Shown: piece after piece, positions 16,159 through 56,987 of the stretch
Position numbering within the stretch: position 1 is the first letter of the stretch
How the letters are laid out: every line of letters starts with the position of its first letter
NCBI GenBank assembly: GCA_927797885.1
Contig: OV696605.1
Location: forward strand, 1,897,157-1,961,156
Reading direction: 5' to 3'
Origin: Gloeomargaritales cyanobacterium VI4D9
Lineage (GTDB): Bacteria > Cyanobacteriota > Cyanobacteriia > Gloeomargaritales > Gloeomargaritaceae
Length of the DNA stretch: 64,000 bases
The notes under the pieces: generated by a model
What the model saw: only the letters and a program-made list of their open reading frames with translations
What the model was told of the DNA's origin: nothing
Databases searched by the model: none
Made by a program: the position numbers and the translations under genes

Positions 16159-18021
16159 CTATGCAGAAATTGCCAATCGCAAGGCTTCATCTAAATCATC
16201 TAACCCTACAAATGTTATTTCATACGTTTGCGAAAGCATTTGTCTTTGTTGTTGTTCCAATTTGGGAGCTACCAAAATAAATTGCCTCGGTGATAAGTCC
16301 AATTGTCGGACGTAGTTGGTATATCTTGGAATTCTTGACCTGAATGATTCATAGTCACCAGTTTTACATTCAAAAACAATCATTTGCCTATTAATAAATG
16401 CGATCAAATCGAATTCACCGGACGATTCGCTAACTGTAGAAAATTTCAAGTTGCTTAAGCAAACAATTTTCCGTTGCCTTTGCTGATAAAATTTACGCAC
16501 CTTATCGTAAAGGTAAAATTCAAGCCACCCACCTCTAAGAAGGTCAGAGATCACAGGGAAATTTGGATCGCCATCATTTAGCGTAGCAGAAATTCGATTT
16601 TCCGTTGGTACACGATTCAAAGTGCGAAAAAATCTATATGTTCTGAGTAGGTCTAAAAAATTATTAATACAATTCCTATCATCCGTTGTTGAAAATGAAT
16701 AATCAAAATTACTGCCTTGCCTATTATTCAGCTTTCTTTTTAAAGAATTTTCAATGCCCTTGAGGTTATCAAAATTTCTCGACAACATTCTGGTTATTCT
16801 AGGAAATGGATCTCTTGGGTTAAATACTTGCGAAACATTTGAGGTAAAATCTGGCATGAACCCAGATTGAAAAATTTTAATCAGCATTTCAAAGTCCATA
16901 TTTTGTTCATCACTGGATGGCAAGTTTCTGTTAACTATATCCCTAATTTGCTGGATGAATCTATTTTCTGTATCTTGTTTTGTATTTTGAATCTGTTCCT
17001 GGGTTTCTGTAATAGTTTTAACACTATTTTGCTGTTCCCTTATCATTTGTTCTAACTGTTTAATATAACTGGTTAGCTCGCATTCTCTTTGTCGAGTCTC
17101 ATTGTACATCTTTGTAAGATTTTGGTTATCATGACTTATATCTTTTAAGGCAATTTCTAATCGTTCTTTTTCTTCTGCAATCGCATTCAATTCTCGATAG
17201 GATTCTTCTCTTGAGGCTTCTAGAGAAACCAGCTTTTCTTGGGCACGAAATAGTTCATTTTTGAGAATTAGAATTGATTTTTCCGCCGAGAGCACTTGCC
17301 TGGTGACCTGTTCATTTTCTTTGAGTATCTGTTCGTACTCTCGCTGTTTCAGATTTATCAAAAACTCAATAAATATGAATGTTATCACAAATAAAATAAC
17401 TGTTAGTAGCGAAGTGTTGAAATACAAAGGGAAGGCATCCTGTTCTGCCAAGGGATTTGACACCCACATCTGCAAATCTTCCAGTAAGGATGGAGGGATG
17501 CCCCGAATGTAATAGATGCGACCAATAACTTTCCCAGGTGGTTTTTGTAATGTTCCCGGTTTTTTTACATAGGGGTCTGTATAAGATGCTTGTGCTGTAA
17601 CCGGTGGTGGATCAGTCAAATAATTAAAATGGTGGTCTTGCAGGGAAGTGGGTTCCTCTAGCAATTTACGTTGCCAAGGAAAGCTATCAAGCACAACTTT
17701 AGAGTTTGACTTGGCGAGTATTTTTTTTCCCTCGGCATCAGTGACAACCAAACCGAACAAACTGTAGTTACTATCTAAAGTTTTTTGTAGCTCTAATAAG
17801 TCATTCTGTAATAACAACAGCGATAATTTGGTGGGTAGCGTATGAGCAAGCATATTGAAATCTACTGTTTGCACCTGAAAAATAGTCGTTTCCCAATATA
17901 CTTTATGACCCCTTTCAATTAGCCAAAAACCCCCTCCGATAAAGACTGTAGCAAGTGCTACAATTCGTTCTATACGACTAACCCATGTAGATCGAGTTAA
18001 AAAATTTGACTTGAGATTCAT
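16159..18021 (-). CDS. Membrane sensor protein with C-terminal PD-(D/E)XK nuclease-like domain
   Basis: A 620-residue protein from ATG 18021 (open upstream to 18126). A first membrane span at about residues 19-35 (IVALATVFIGGGFWLIE) is followed by about 165 residues predicted outside the membrane, with a Cache-like strand pattern (YSLFGLVVTDAEGKKILAKS and KVIGRIYYIRGIPPSLLEDL). A second span lies at about 204-222, then a coiled coil (about 225-355) and a soluble region. Residues about 490-620 form a nuclease-like domain: Glu in GGWLEFYLYDKV, Asp in GEFDLIAFINR and the ExK in VFECKTG. This spacing resembles the nuclease half of DUF1887/Card1-Can2 CRISPR effectors. No CARF domain is present. 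It is AT-rich, unlike its neighbours. Function is unknown. Confidence 0.7.
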   Translation of the reverse strand: MNLKSNFLTRSTWVSRIERIVALATVFIGGGFWLIERGHKVYWETTIFQVQTVDFNMLAHTLPTKLSLLLLQNDLLELQKTLDSNYSLFGLVVTDAEGKKILAKSNSKVVLDSFPWQRKLLEEPTSLQDHHFNYLTDPPPVTAQASYTDPYVKKPGTLQKPPGKVIGRIYYIRGIPPSLLEDLQMWVSNPLAEQDAFPLYFNTSLLTVILFVITFIFIEFLINLKQREYEQILKENEQVTRQVLSAEKSILILKNELFRAQEKLVSLEASREESYRELNAIAEEKERLEIALKDISHDNQNLTKMYNETRQRECELTSYIKQLEQMIREQQNSVKTITETQEQIQNTKQDTENRFIQQIRDIVNRNLPSSDEQNMDFEMLIKIFQSGFMPDFTSNVSQVFNPRDPFPRITRMLSRNFDNLKGIENSLKRKLNNRQGSNFDYSFSTTDDRNCINNFLDLLRTYRFFRTLNRVPTENRISATLNDGDPNFPVISDLLRGGWLEFYLYDKVRKFYQQRQRKIVCLSNLKFSTVSESSGEFDLIAFINRQMIVFECKTGDYESFRSRIPRYTNYVRQLDLSPRQFILVAPKLEQQQRQMLSQTYEITFVGLDDLDEALRLAISA

Positions 18022-18221
18022 AACTTCTAGCCATCCTTTATTAATGGGAATTGTACAGTCCAGATATAGATTTGAACCTAAAAATAAAATAATGATTTTA
18101 TGGCTTATTTCAAAAGAGGCAGACATTTACATTCTGAAACATTTAACTCAAGGTAGCCCTCTTGCGTTAAGCCTTAGAGGCATAAGTTAAAGTAAGGGTA
18201 ATCTTCCCACCCGTTGCGGTG

Positions 18222-18944
18222 ATGCGCTCCCTGTTGGCGACCGTATTTCGACCCGCCTGCCCCTTGTGTACCCGGCCAGCCCAGGGCTATTTTTGTGTGG
18301 ATTGTCAACGGCAGATTGAAGCCACCCGTTTGCCCCAACCTTGGCAATTTTGGCAGGAACCCCTACCCTTGGCGGCTTGGGGACGGTATCAGGATGCGCT
18401 CAAACGGGTATTGGGGGCACTGAAATACCACAACCGCCCGGAGCTTGCCCGTCCCCTGGGGCATCATCTGGGGGATTTATGGCTGACGGGGGGGCATGGA
18501 CTGCCGCAACCGCCTGGGGTGGTGCCCATTCCCATTCACCCGGAAAAACGCAAAACCCGGGGGTACAACCAAGCAGAACTATTGGCAGAAGCCTTTTGTC
18601 AGTATGTTGGCTTAAAACTGTACAGCAATTTACTCCTGCGGCAAACCGATACCCAGGCGCAACATTCCCTGTCGGCACGGGAACGGGAGGCTAATTTAGC
18701 CACAGCATTTGCGATCAATCCTCACCATCGCCGCCCCAAAGCACCAGTGTTAATCCTTGATGACATTTATACCACGGGGGCGACGGCTCGCACGGCTCAA
18801 GCCGTATTACAACAGGCGGGACTTAGGGTGGTGGGAATTTTGGTGGTGGCGACGGGGAAAGCGGATATGCCCGGCGAATCGCCGGTGAGCAAATCCAAAA
18901 CTGGAGCAAATGGGCAAATGATGAAGGGCACCTCTCAACATTAA
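18222..18944 (+). CDS. comF: ComF family phosphoribosyltransferase-like protein
   Basis: About 240 residues. The N-terminus holds two Cys pairs (CPLC and CVDC) that form the usual zinc finger. The middle has the ComF segment LKYHNRPELARPLG, then PIPIHPEKRKTRGYNQAELLA, and the PRPP-binding motif LILDDIYTTGATARTA. ComF proteins act with ComFA in DNA uptake, and the homologue GntX has other roles. The start is ATG 18222, with a GTG one codon earlier. The last roughly 25 codons (after VVATGKAD) are unlike the family and run into a GGGCACCTCT motif, so the tail may have been altered by an insertion. Confidence 0.88.
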   Translation: MRSLLATVFRPACPLCTRPAQGYFCVDCQRQIEATRLPQPWQFWQEPLPLAAWGRYQDALKRVLGALKYHNRPELARPLGHHLGDLWLTGGHGLPQPPGVVPIPIHPEKRKTRGYNQAELLAEAFCQYVGLKLYSNLLLRQTDTQAQHSLSAREREANLATAFAINPHHRRPKAPVLILDDIYTTGATARTAQAVLQQAGLRVVGILVVATGKADMPGESPVSKSKTGANGQMMKGTSQH

Positions 18945-52431: not shown

Positions 52432-52986
52432 ATGGCTTACTCCTGGTTCAAAGCGTTACATATTATCGGCGTAGTCGTCTGGTTTGCCGGACTGTTTTAT
52501 TTGGTGCGCCTGTTTATCTACCATGTGGAAGCCCAAACCCAACCGGAACCCGCCCGGGGCATCCTCACCGCCCAGTACGGTCTGATGGAAAAACGTTTGT
52601 ATAATATCATCACAACCCCCGGCATGATTTTAACGGTGGCGATGGCAGTGGGGTTATTGGTTTTACAACGGGATTGGTTGCATGATTGGTGGTTGCATTT
52701 GAAATTAACTTTAGTGGTTTTGTTGCTGGGTTATCACTTTTATTGTGGGCGGTTATTGCATCAATTGGCAGAGGGCAAATGTACTTGGACGAGTGGGCAA
52801 TTGCGGGCGTTTAACGAAGCTCCCACCGTGCTGTTGTTTGTGATTGTGTTGCTCGCCGTATTCAAAAATAATTTTCCCTTGGGGGTAACGACCTGGGCGG
52901 TGGTGGCTTTGGTGGTGGCGATGGGAATAGCCATTCAACTCTATGCCCGCAAACGGCGGTTAGACAAGGAAGTGGTCAGTCAATAG
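52432..52986 (+). CDS. hemJ: Protoporphyrinogen IX oxidase HemJ
   Basis: A 184-residue four-helix membrane protein that oxidises protoporphyrinogen IX to protoporphyrin IX, ahead of the heme/chlorophyll branch point. The N-terminal heme-ligand His is in WFKALHIIGVVVWFAGLFYLVRLFIYH, then AQYGLMEKRLYNIITTPGM, a second His in HLKLTLVVLLLGYHFYCG and FNEAPTVLLF. A CARF-domain gene follows 32 bases downstream on the same strand. Confidence 0.95.
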   Translation: MAYSWFKALHIIGVVVWFAGLFYLVRLFIYHVEAQTQPEPARGILTAQYGLMEKRLYNIITTPGMILTVAMAVGLLVLQRDWLHDWWLHLKLTLVVLLLGYHFYCGRLLHQLAEGKCTWTSGQLRAFNEAPTVLLFVIVLLAVFKNNFPLGVTTWAVVALVVAMGIAIQLYARKRRLDKEVVSQ

Positions 52987-53018
52987 TTAGGCAGATTCTT
53001 CAAGCCGGGAGAGAGTTT

Positions 53019-54152
53019 ATGCCTCAGAGAAACACTTTGATATGCACGGTCGGAACAAGTCTGTTTGAGGGTAATTTAAGTCGTTTGTCAGCAAATACAC
53101 CTGATGCGCCATCAAATTGGCGAAATATTCGCAAGGCTTATGATGAACAAAATTGGACAAATTTAGCTAAAGAGATACTTAAAGTATCGCCAACTGAAAG
53201 AGTATGCGGTGCTGAAATCAACACCATAGAAGAAGCCCGAAGAAAAAACTGGCTTGAACTTGAAAATCTAATTTTTCTTGTTTCGGATACCCCTAACGGA
53301 AAAAACACGGGAGAATTTCTAAAGCGCTATTTTGAACAACGTACCGACCTGAATTTACGAAATCTCGAATATCAAATCGTTGATAATCTTCAAGATGAGC
53401 GACCCATAGATTTTAAGGTTCACGGCTTAAGAAATCTTGTTCGCAAAGCTGGCGAGTACATACAACGATTTGGTGGTGTTGAATATGTCGCTATTGACGC
53501 AACTGGCGGATACAAAGCGCAAATAGCAATAGCCGTTGTTATTGGGCAAGCATTAAATATACCTGTTTTTTATAAACACGAGAGATTTTCAGAAATTATA
53601 GATTTTCCCCCGTTGCCAATATCATTTGATTATGACATTCTTGCAGAAAATGCCGATGTCCTAGCAGACTTTGAACGTGGTAAGGCGTTTTCCCATAGGG
53701 AACTTGATAAACTTGATGAAAAACTTCGTGTTTTATTGACGGAGATTGTTGTTGATGGGGAATCTGTTTACGAATTAAGCCCTATAGGACAAATTTACTT
53801 AACAGGCTTTCGTATCCGCAATCCAAAGCCGATAAGACTAATACCAGCGCAAAACAAGAAAAAGCCCTCATTTAGAGATGACCATTACCCAATTGGGTTT
53901 AAGGATTTTGTGGAAAAAGTTTGGCGGGAAAATACATGGATAGTAACAGCAAACTCATTGCCGTACTCTGGACAAAAATCAATTAAGGGCATTGGATTCC
54001 GCGTGCCAGAAGAAAATGGTGAAAAACGGCTTATAGGAACGTTCCAAGATAAAAACAATTTTGGCGCAAGGTTTTGGATTCATATTACTGATGAATCTCC
54101 AATAGCCTTGGCATGGGCGGCAGACACCTTAAACCAGAAATATAAGCAATAA
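53019..54152 (+). CDS. Orphan CARF-domain protein (APE2256/TIGR02619-like) with putative RelE-like C-terminus
   Basis: A 377-residue protein. The N-terminal Rossmann-like CARF domain (1 to about 190) has the ICTVGTSLFEGN loop and the AIDATGGYKAQIAIA loop with the YKHERFSEII strand, both part of the cyclic-oligoadenylate pocket in this superfamily. A winged-helix stretch follows (about 215-265, LDEKLRVLLTEIVVDGES, YELSPIGQIYLTGF). The last roughly 95 residues (FRDDHYPIGFKDFVEKVWRE to the end, with KRLIGTFQDKNNFGARFWIH) have RelE-like strand and charge patterns, as in known CARF-RelE fusions. It would sense a cyclic nucleotide and cleave mRNA or stop translation. No cas gene or CRISPR array is near. 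It is AT-rich. Start ATG 53019 with GGAGAG upstream. Confidence 0.75.
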   Translation: MPQRNTLICTVGTSLFEGNLSRLSANTPDAPSNWRNIRKAYDEQNWTNLAKEILKVSPTERVCGAEINTIEEARRKNWLELENLIFLVSDTPNGKNTGEFLKRYFEQRTDLNLRNLEYQIVDNLQDERPIDFKVHGLRNLVRKAGEYIQRFGGVEYVAIDATGGYKAQIAIAVVIGQALNIPVFYKHERFSEIIDFPPLPISFDYDILAENADVLADFERGKAFSHRELDKLDEKLRVLLTEIVVDGESVYELSPIGQIYLTGFRIRNPKPIRLIPAQNKKKPSFRDDHYPIGFKDFVEKVWRENTWIVTANSLPYSGQKSIKGIGFRVPEENGEKRLIGTFQDKNNFGARFWIHITDESPIALAWAADTLNQKYKQ

Positions 54153-54422
54153 TCAACAACTACACCACCCCAAACGATATAGCAATCAGGCTGGAATTGT
54201 CACCCCAGCTTAGTTTTTAGTAACTTTATCATTCACATATATGGTCTGAAATTGCTATGGGACATTCGGAAATTCTCCCATCAATTGAAAATACTTTTTC
54301 TGGTTCTTAATCGTGTGGGCATTTCATTGAAATAATTTTCTACCCATCTCAATCAACAGGGAAATAAAAATGTCTTGAACTTGTTTTTACCGCTTGACCA
54401 AACACGCAAAAATGTCACTAAT

Positions 54423-55665
54423 GGGCACCTCTATTAATTGATTTTGGGAGGGATTTATGAGATAATTACTACTAACAATGTGGAGAGAAAAAATGGGTCA
54501 AAAAGGATTTTGGGATGAGCAAGAGCGGCGGGAAAAACTCAATCAGAAAAAGCCCATGCTGAAGTGGCTCAATGAAAATATTAACTGGGAAGATTTCCGA
54601 CCAATATTAGAAACGATATATGACAAGGGAAGAAAGAGCAATGCAGGTCGTAAACCCACCGACGTGATTGTGATGTTTAAATTGTTGATTCTCCAACAAA
54701 TGTATGCCATTAGTGACGATGAACTCGAGTTTCAAGTGAATGACCGTGTCTCGTTCATGGAATTCTTAGGATTGGGTATCGAAGACGCTATCCCTGATGC
54801 CAAAACGGTCTGGTTATTTCGGGATAATCTCGCCAAGCATGAGCTGGCCAAAGAACTATTTGCTCACTTTGATAATTACCTGAGAGAGAAAGGATATATT
54901 GTCGCATTTGGCCAGATTGTGGATGCTACTCTTATTCCCGTGCCAGTTCAACGGAATACTCGGCAAGAAAATCAAGAAGTAAAGGAAGGGAAAATTCCTA
55001 AGCAATGGGAGGAAAACCCGCATGTTTTACGGCAAAAGGATAGAACTGCCCGTTGGGTAAAGAAAAATGGTGTCAGCTATTTTGGCTATAAAAATCATAT
55101 CAGCGTGGATGTAAAATATGGTTTTGTGCGTCATTATGTGGTCACGGATGCCTCCGTGCATGACTCCCAAGTATTCAGTCAACTTGTGGATATTGATGGG
55201 TCGGAAATCTGGGGAGATAGTGCTTATCACAGCACGGATTTAGAATGGACGTTAGCCAGGATTGGGTTTACCAGTCAAATCCATGAAAAAGGCTACCGAA
55301 ATCAGCCCCTAACCGCCGAGCAAAAGGAACGGAATCGCATCAAATCTCAAGTGAGAGCCAAGGTGGAACACGTATTTGGTCAGTGGGTAATGTGTCTTGG
55401 GGGTAAGTTCATGCGTCTGATTGGTAAAACCAGAGTAGAAGCGGCAATTGGGTTGAAAAATCTCGCTTATAATTTCCGCCGTTATGCGTTTTGGGAGCGG
55501 CAGTCTCTTGCTGATAATCTGTGAGTTTTGACCCCATACTAAGTCTCTTTTCAATCATATCTACACCCATCTATAAAACCCAGTCATATTAGTACAAAAA
55601 AGTACTGAGCAATGTTATGCTGTTCTTGTATTTTATTACCATTTTTTGAATAAATAGAGGTGCCC
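54423..55665. mobile_element. IS5-family insertion sequence, intact
   Basis: A 1243-base element with terminal inverted repeats GGGCACCTCTATTA at 54423 and AATAGAGGTGCCC ending at 55665. It has one complete transposase gene. Subterminal DNA after the gene holds a GTACTTTTTTGTAC-like hairpin (AGTACAAAAAAGTACT). The flanks read CACTAAT on the left and TAAAGTG on the right, so a short TAA-type duplication is possible but I cannot fix it. On the right it truncates an IS1-type gene. The 270 bases on its left, after the CARF gene, have no gene. Confidence 0.92.
54478..55524 (+). CDS. IS5-family transposase
   Basis: A 348-residue DDE transposase. The N-terminal DUF772-like domain has PMLKWLNENINWEDFRPILE and GRKPTDVIVMFKLLILQQMYAISDDELEFQ. 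The catalytic residues lie in IVDATLIPVP (first Asp), GSEIWGDSAYHSTD (second Asp) and RVKVEHVFG-like QVRAKVEHVFGQWV (Glu). Nothing is broken, so the copy may be active. ATG 54493 (MGQKGFWDEQ) is an alternative start. A decayed copy with the same motifs lies at 12253-13246. Confidence 0.94.
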   Translation: MWREKMGQKGFWDEQERREKLNQKKPMLKWLNENINWEDFRPILETIYDKGRKSNAGRKPTDVIVMFKLLILQQMYAISDDELEFQVNDRVSFMEFLGLGIEDAIPDAKTVWLFRDNLAKHELAKELFAHFDNYLREKGYIVAFGQIVDATLIPVPVQRNTRQENQEVKEGKIPKQWEENPHVLRQKDRTARWVKKNGVSYFGYKNHISVDVKYGFVRHYVVTDASVHDSQVFSQLVDIDGSEIWGDSAYHSTDLEWTLARIGFTSQIHEKGYRNQPLTAEQKERNRIKSQVRAKVEHVFGQWVMCLGGKFMRLIGKTRVEAAIGLKNLAYNFRRYAFWERQSLADNL

Positions 55666-56093: not shown

Positions 56094-56987
56094 TTAAATA
56101 GAGGTGTCCTTGAGAAATATACCCTGCCCTGTCGGAAAGTGAAGGAATAAGCCCGCTCTGTTTTTGAAAAATGCATCAACAACGTCTCGGGTGTCTTGGA
56201 AATCTGCCCAAGCATAATCATCAAGTAAAATGACACTACCTGATGGCATTTTATCGAAAAAGAACTCTAGAGCAATTCTAGTTGGTATGGAAGAATTCAG
56301 GTCAATATGAAGCCATACTAAATTTTCGGGGCTAGTGCTGGTTTCTAGGGAGTCAGGAATAAAGCCCTGGTTAAAAATTGTGAATCCATCAAAATCTTTG
56401 AGGTTTTGCTTAGTTCTAGTAATGCTTGCATCAGAGTACCAACCAGTTTTAGATAGTTCCGATTCAACCAGATAATCAGACTTCATGGCTTCCCAGGAAT
56501 CATACAAATAGCATTTGAATGAATAATTGTATTTCTGTAATACCTTCATAACAAAAAAAGCTGTCACACCATCACATACACCACATTCAGCGATATTTAT
56601 CTGTTTAACTTTGGTCATTTGAGATGCATAGATAATACTCCAACAAACCAAATAATGTCGCCACATTAATTCATTGAAGAGATGAATCTGACCTGAAATA
56701 TCTTTGTATAGGGTACTCTCTGATTGAATGAAAGATTGATTTTGGATTCTTTCAATGATTTCGTTGTGTATCTGTAAAAAACTTTGAGCAATTGAGTCCT
56801 GCCCTTTGACCCAAGGAGGATTGGTTGTAGTAGTTGTCATTCCCCAACCTTGAAAGGTAAATTTAGGGGGATTCTCAGATATAGTAGTCTTACTCTTTCT
56901 GCCACGAATAATGTTAAGTGCTTCCCAGGCTTCGGGCCAAAGTTTTATGAGTGAATGTTTTACAATCGGCTTTATGTGAGACACCAT
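56094..56987 (-). CDS. TylF/macrocin O-methyltransferase-like protein
   Basis: A 297-residue SAM-dependent methyltransferase of the TylF type. The SAM motif is in INIAECGVCDGVTAFFVMKVL, an acidic strand is in CYLYDSWEAM, and the metal-binding Asp region is in LVWLHIDLNSSIPTRIALEFFFD with ILLDDYAWADFQDT. Such enzymes methylate sugar or small-molecule hydroxyls. The surrounding genes give no pathway. It is AT-rich, and its last codons (Lys-Asp-Thr-Ser-Ile-stop) are written by GGACACCTCTATTTAA, which is an IS5-family-like terminal repeat, so the original end may have been replaced. Confidence 0.85.
   Translation of the reverse strand: MVSHIKPIVKHSLIKLWPEAWEALNIIRGRKSKTTISENPPKFTFQGWGMTTTTTNPPWVKGQDSIAQSFLQIHNEIIERIQNQSFIQSESTLYKDISGQIHLFNELMWRHYLVCWSIIYASQMTKVKQINIAECGVCDGVTAFFVMKVLQKYNYSFKCYLYDSWEAMKSDYLVESELSKTGWYSDASITRTKQNLKDFDGFTIFNQGFIPDSLETSTSPENLVWLHIDLNSSIPTRIALEFFFDKMPSGSVILLDDYAWADFQDTRDVVDAFFKNRAGLFLHFPTGQGIFLKDTSI

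Follow-up and report, generated by a model that had tools for sequence, protein, structure and literature searches.

The CARF gene and its family

How does a CARF protein encoded far from any CRISPR locus come by its signal, and what would it do in response? The question is raised by an intact 377-codon open reading frame on the forward strand of the window, by which we mean the whole 64-kb stretch of DNA that was analysed. The original prediction had placed this ORF at 53019-54152 and taken its product for an orphan CARF protein, probably CARF-winged helix-RelE; the ORF itself was borne out, with a 377-aa product and a putative ribosome-binding site, GGGAGA. Four features are considered first:

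53019-54152, forward strand: CARF7 protein gene, PADLOC class CARF7--CARF_DUF2103 (PF09651, PDLC01930, TIGR02619)
53028-53615, forward strand: sensor domain of the CARF (Rossmann) kind, spanning residues 4-199 and including S14, E66 and K166 (PF09651, model match, residue conservation)
53631-53822, forward strand: winged-helix linker domain, about residues 205-268 (model aligned to Cami1 until residue 271)
53850-54149, forward strand: C-terminal alpha/beta domain, assigned to the CARF_DUF2103/NsnC type, residues 278-377, with DDH at 287-289 (PDLC01930, profile match, model)

It is nearly certain that the product belongs to the CARF7 family. The Pfam family PF09651 (Cas_APE2256) matched residues 63-199 with an E-value of 6.9e-31 (107.4 bits; cut-off 24.8) and the NCBIfam model TIGR02619 matched at 1.6e-17 (63.7 bits; cut-off 37.45). 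The loops ICTVGTSL and DATGGYK, on which a CARF domain had been proposed, are both CARF motifs of PF09651. Among the PADLOC profiles the best was PDLC01930 (CARF7--CARF_DUF2103), matching residues 4-375 at 4.6e-97, and the next best were CARF_RelE models, at 6e-52 and weaker. A Pfam match to HTH_NWD1 was set aside, as it fell under the cut-off (E 0.036). Since its class is already catalogued in PADLOC, the window protein is one further member of a known, uncharacterised kind; what is unusual is its distance from type III loci, its nearest kin in other phyla and a C-terminal domain in common with NsnC.

The sensor half of the protein

The full-length model, for which the input was the window protein and two relatives, reached a mean pLDDT of only 73. 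Cami1, a cA4-activated CARF-RelE protein, was the best Foldseek match of the whole model, and 241 residues (model residues 5-271) could be aligned to apo Cami1 with a Z of 16.2 and an rmsd of 4.3, in agreement with the winged helix that had been expected after the CARF domain. The Rossmann fold of the CARF domain is reflected in the matches to Cami1, SSO1393 and Sis0811 (Z 14.9-16.2, rmsd 4.0-4.3, 235-241 residues). Moreover, S14, E66 and K166 are invariant across all 28 aligned CARF7 proteins, and the alignment equates them with S12, E70 and K167 of SyCsm6. The roles of these residues in cOA (cyclic oligoadenylate) binding and ring-nuclease activity come from work on SyCsm6, in which the K167A substitution abolished cleavage of cA4 and cA6 (PMC9676260).

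Because of the model matches, the conserved S/E/K residues and the SyCsm6 K167A result, both cOA binding and ring-nuclease activity are to be expected. We predict the former with high confidence, the ligand being most likely cA4, and the latter, from what is known of the family, with fairly high confidence. Family precedent also suggests that the CARF domain dimerises.

The C-terminal domain

A RelE-like C-terminus was part of the original prediction, and here our results point elsewhere. Searched alone against PADLOC, the C-terminus matched a single model, PDLC01930 (CARF_DUF2103), at 9e-4, and in profile comparisons it matched none of the CARF-RelE C-termini, the probabilities against SyCsm6-type and Cami1 C-termini being 0.1-0.3. 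These negatives are weak, because the comparison of one RelE kind with the other (SyCsm6-type against Cami1-type), run as a control, failed likewise at 0.1. The last 111 residues, searched alone, matched no Pfam family and no solved chain. Folded alone, the C-terminus gave a confident model (pLDDT 89.3, pTM 0.82) with the topology helix-strand-(hairpin)-strand-strand-helix; the comparison of such a model with RelE/ParE, as had been proposed, listed no RelE/ParE among the structural matches, and nothing was found at Foldseek E <0.05 or a Z of 5. Its top neighbours, PTB/PH-like and heme-utilisation proteins, were left unused, with Z <=4.5 lying under the noise level stated for the tool. A dsRBD reading of the topology (helix-strand-strand-strand-helix) was dropped, no dsRBD being prominent among the matches. 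Most likely the C-terminus is not RelE; the searches lend RelE no support, which falls short of disproving it.

The relationships that were detected lie within the class. With hhalign, the window clade aligned to a six-member NsnC-like group (L047-L054) over 95 columns (probability 79, E 1.7e-5), and the CARF_DUF2103 class profile also reached short CARF7 proteins lacking a winged helix (probability 66). Pfam searches with 16 C-termini of the class gave no convincing family (best E 0.087), and the name DUF2103 is PADLOC's. Judged by its sequence, the C-terminus belongs to the CARF_DUF2103 class. We infer that it is an output domain with a biochemical activity; that this output is enzymatic is a guess, since the domain is without a solved relative.

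The same domain appears in other settings. The C-terminal part of the PADLOC model NsnC matches the C-terminus of L050, L052 and their kin (CARF_DUF2103) at E ~1e-36, and the NsnC N-terminus was found in separate proteins of ~310 aa with another C-terminus; the CARF_DUF2103/NsnC C-terminus is a modular defence domain, joined to two kinds of N-terminal part. The short CARF7 proteins (~300 aa; L060, L063, L064 and L065) end in an HH..P..W domain, a relative of the C-terminus of CARF_DUF2103 proteins, and the only one of them that was scanned, L064, is CARF only in PADLOC, with no effector domain named.

Type III loci elsewhere in the chromosome

The claim that no CRISPR locus lies nearby held for the entire 64 kb. 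Genome-wide searches for Cas10, RAMP and Cas1 matched only outside the window, 37 proteins (cas and associated) gave no tblastn match in the window, and the window contains neither a CRISPR array nor the repeats of any of the three arrays in the genome. The chromosome, probably cyanobacterial to judge by its relatives, is rich in CRISPR and forms a single contig of 3.16 Mb (99.9% complete); a search of the full genome for cas10 and arrays, which the original prediction had suggested, returned two GGDD Cas10b proteins in III-B loci and three arrays, all outside the window:

about 2.381-2.400 Mb: III-B locus (b), with array, Cas1, DnaJ-domain protein, Cas10b (489 aa), Cmr3, Cmr4, Cmr5 and Cmr6
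about 3.077-3.097 Mb: III-B locus (a), with Csx3-AAA, CARF7-RelE-type protein, WYL, Csx1 (CARF-HEPN), Cas10b (1009 aa), Cmr3, Cmr4, Cmr5, Cas1, Cas2 and array
near 2.33 Mb: third locus, Cas1/Cas4/array

Locus (b) lies about 0.45 Mb and locus (a) 1.13 Mb from the CARF gene. A closely linked type III locus, which in the original prediction would have spoken against an orphan, was not found, the nearest III-B locus being ~0.45 Mb off. The GGDD motif is kept in both Cas10b proteins of the genome, and cyclase activity is predicted for them from sequence. No CARF effector was seen among the genes scanned on both sides of the 489-aa Cas10 of locus (b). At locus (a) the CARF-RelE-type protein (about 3.078 Mb) is a full-length ortholog of SyCsm6/Sll7062 (46.9% identity), so a gene other than that of the window already fills the SyCsm6-type role. 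The CARF gene of the window is therefore unlinked to type III, yet not an orphan as regards a possible signal source, because the same chromosome has two GGDD-bearing Cas10 proteins. With two such III-B loci present, the earlier suggestion of a distant effector that serves a type III system at another place in the chromosome is supported, and the data do not call for its alternative, a different cyclic-nucleotide defence system, which is improbable.

The array of locus (b) (L010:1531-11180), next to the short-Cas10 genes, is very long: its repeat core occurs in 128 exact copies. Within the III-B operon of locus (a), two ORFs (L012:16626-17303 and 17800-18423) match the PADLOC candidate-defence models PDC-S03/PDC-S17 instead of any Cmr model.

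Insertion slot and relatives

The surroundings of the CARF gene comprise the following features:

52432-52986, forward strand: hemJ (UPF0093), upstream host gene (PF03653, 4.1e-46)
54321-54422, no strand: 102-bp segment that bounds the variable slot on the right (91% identity to a sister species)
54423-55665, forward strand: intact IS, with DDE_Tnp_1 transposase at 54478-55524, terminal inverted repeats GGGCACCTCTATT and flanking TAA
55665-56036, reverse strand: IS1-type InsA-like ORF (PF12759, E 1.2e-4, under the Pfam cut-off)

As had been noted originally, hemJ is just upstream, with a 33-bp gap between its stop and the CARF ORF, and an IS element comes after the CARF gene. The CARF gene has a GC content of 39% and a GC3 of 30%, against 56-59% and 65-68% in the flanking Ski2-type helicase, trmFO and mtnA genes and 49% and 60% in hemJ. 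Synteny with two genomes of the same genus breaks at 52991, directly past hemJ, where this AT-rich insertion occupies the slot. In the closest sister species (hemJ 98% identical) a different ORF, of 161 aa and with no Pfam match (L075:10470-11263), stands between hemJ and the 102-bp right edge. It is possible that the slot past hemJ (window 52987-54422; L075:10470-11263) is a cargo hotspot, with different ORFs between shared edges; the IS at 54423-55665 was inserted after the CARF cargo event. A TylF-like methyltransferase ORF (56094-56987, reverse strand, GC 38%) lies in the same AT-rich stretch, with the IS elements on one side and the next host gene on the other. In two sister species no match to the CARF gene was found, though both carry the short-Cas10 locus; since they have the locus without the gene, the gene is not required for it.

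In a tree of the CARF and winged-helix parts, the window protein pairs with the Bacteroidota protein L015 (support 100/99) within a 14-member clade (99/99), apart from Cami1 and SyCsm6. Its nearest kin are L015, from Microscillaceae (Bacteroidota; 66% identity, and 68% across CARF and winged helix), and L016, from Anaerolineales (Chloroflexota; 70-76% in pieces). The other 12 of the 14 members (G-handle genomes and one Nostoc plasmid) adjoin RAMPs, Cas10, Csx3 or WYL genes; for one of them, L047, the type III context consists of RAMP matches on its contig, 1-4 kb upstream. Two of the 12, G213 and G118, have as neighbour a short Cas10b of the type found at locus (b). L015 and L016 both adjoin type IIG restriction-methylation genes, and no cas genes were found on their contigs, which are 3.7 and 5.6 kb long. 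The RAMP profile had no match in the two MAGs, which may be incomplete, and the profile also missed the Cas10-bearing G197; a Cas10 search of the MAG of L015, likewise possibly incomplete, gave no match. The copy in L016 (1101-1790) is broken by an internal deletion and frameshifts and lies between an IS200-type transposase and the type IIG gene.

Samples of about 400 genomes each from Chloroflexota and Bacteroidota returned only the two known loci and one weaker match. Weak Cas10-profile matches in G387 were not counted, as they resemble general GGDEF-level matches. A viral origin of the CARF gene was set aside, no viral or phage relatives having been found, and all plasmid relatives of the window protein are below 60% identity. 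Because of its GC3 of 30% against about 65%, the different ORF in the slot of the sister species and nearest kin in Bacteroidota and Chloroflexota, the CARF gene looks horizontally acquired.

Proposed role and alternatives

On balance we lean towards the view that the window gene encodes a horizontally acquired, displaced type III ancillary protein, which would serve in trans as a cOA sensor/effector with ring-nuclease activity. Under this reading the Cas10 of locus (b), of locus (a) or of both would make cOA in trans, which, most likely as cA4, would bind a dimer of the CARF7 domain. The winged helix would then relay binding to the CARF_DUF2103-type output domain, probably not RelE, while slow cleavage of the ligand by the CARF site (S14/E66/K166) would limit the response. 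The reading is preferred because of the full-length PDLC01930 match, the match to Cami1 and Sis0811 and the conserved S/E/K residues; because of two GGDD Cas10 loci, one of which, (b), has no CARF protein seen in cis; and because clade members adjoin type III genes, two of them with the short-Cas10 type. L015 and L016 count against it, being without cas on short contigs and with no RAMP match in MAGs that may be incomplete, and so do the two sister species with the short-Cas10 locus but no match to the gene. We hold the action in trans with moderate confidence; a toxic or other effector output is putative.

The main rival, clearly less probable though worth serious consideration, is that the protein is mainly a displaced off-switch, which as a CARF7 ring nuclease, or as a cA4 sponge, would bring down the cOA made in trans, its C-terminus being structural or partner-binding and non-toxic. 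Every ring-nuclease residue is kept in the window protein, and locus (a) already has effectors (Csx1 and the CARF-RelE type). The CARF7 relative SyCsm6 breaks down both cA4 and cA6, no RNase activity having been seen for it in vitro (PMC9676260), and orphan Csx15, which sequesters cA4, is a precedent for a cA4-binding protein unlinked to CRISPR (PMC13148439). However, the C-terminal domain of ~95 aa occurs class-wide and in the non-CARF NsnC, which suggests an output or adaptor function, and the genome already has Csx3-AAA.

It is unlikely, though less so than the accounts that follow, that a small mobile clade, made up of the window protein and its two nearest relatives, has become uncoupled from type III loci, its members occurring alone or beside type IIG genes and sensing the cOA of any host Cas10 or another nucleotide signal. 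We regard as improbable a CARF protein detached from the type III system, which would respond to the cyclic nucleotide of another pathway or travel as a passenger on restriction-modification cargo. The type IIG neighbours of L015 and L016 fit this, as do their MAGs without a detected RAMP and, for L015, without a Cas10 match; however, short contigs, possible incompleteness and a RAMP profile blind to G197 take weight from these negatives, and the host genome of the window has two GGDD-bearing Cas10 proteins.

Equally improbable is the proposal from which the work started, a CARF-RelE protein acting as a Cami1-like ribosome-dependent mRNA nuclease. It draws on Cami1 at the head of the Foldseek list for the whole model and on the CARF_RelE matches in PADLOC (6e-52), which are mostly due to the CARF and winged-helix parts that the proteins have in common. 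However, the structural match to Cami1 stops at residue 271, short of the RelE domain, the C-terminus alone matches the DUF2103 model only, its confident model lists no RelE/ParE structure, and the tree sets the protein apart from Cami1 and SyCsm6; the RelE sequence controls were insensitive, so that this falls short of a complete exclusion. Finally, a recently captured passenger gene with no present function would agree with the AT-rich gene, the adjoining IS elements, the variable slot past hemJ and the already broken L016 copy, but is very improbable given the intact ORF, the plausible RBS GGGAGA, the retention of all key residues and 68% identity to the Bacteroidota relative (CARF and winged helix).

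The displaced type III effector that we favour would correct an easy misreading, the protein being neither an orphan nor, probably, a RelE toxin. The genome offers a clean case for signalling in trans, with a far-off CARF protein and two Cas10 proteins, for one of which no effector of the CARF kind was seen in cis. Moreover, CARF7 proteins encoded next to type III loci and the NsnC defence model have in common a C-terminal output domain that is uncharacterised. If that domain is active, the protein would be a new type III effector; if it is inactive, a displaced ring nuclease.

Comparison with known systems

NsnC (PADLOC PDLC03895) resembles the relatives of the window protein in its C-terminal part (about 165-281), which matches their C-termini at ~1e-36, whereas its N-terminus is not CARF; in the literature searched there was no paper on NsnC and no mention of DUF2103. 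The Sulfolobus ring nuclease Sis0811 (PDB 7pq2) has the CARF and winged helix of the window protein (Z 14.9), and its S12 aligns with S14, but it is without the C-terminal domain. With Cami1, the CARF-RelE protein of Allochromatium vinosum (PDB 8phb/8phj), the CARF and winged-helix architecture is common over residues 5-271 (Z 16.2), whereas the C-termini cannot be aligned; the A. vinosum plasmid homolog adjoins cmr1/cas10. SyCsm6 (Sll7062, Synechocystis pSYSA) is, like the window protein, a CARF7 protein with the S/E/K ring-nuclease residues (PMC9676260), but it differs in C-terminus and tree branch, and in this genome a separate gene, with 47% identity, is its ortholog. The closest likeness is to the CARF7--CARF_DUF2103 class (PDLC01930), with which the window protein has the domain order and the C-terminal domain in common in a full-length match; the checked members of that class, L015 and L016 excepted, adjoin type III genes, whereas the window gene lies at least about 0.45 Mb away from them.
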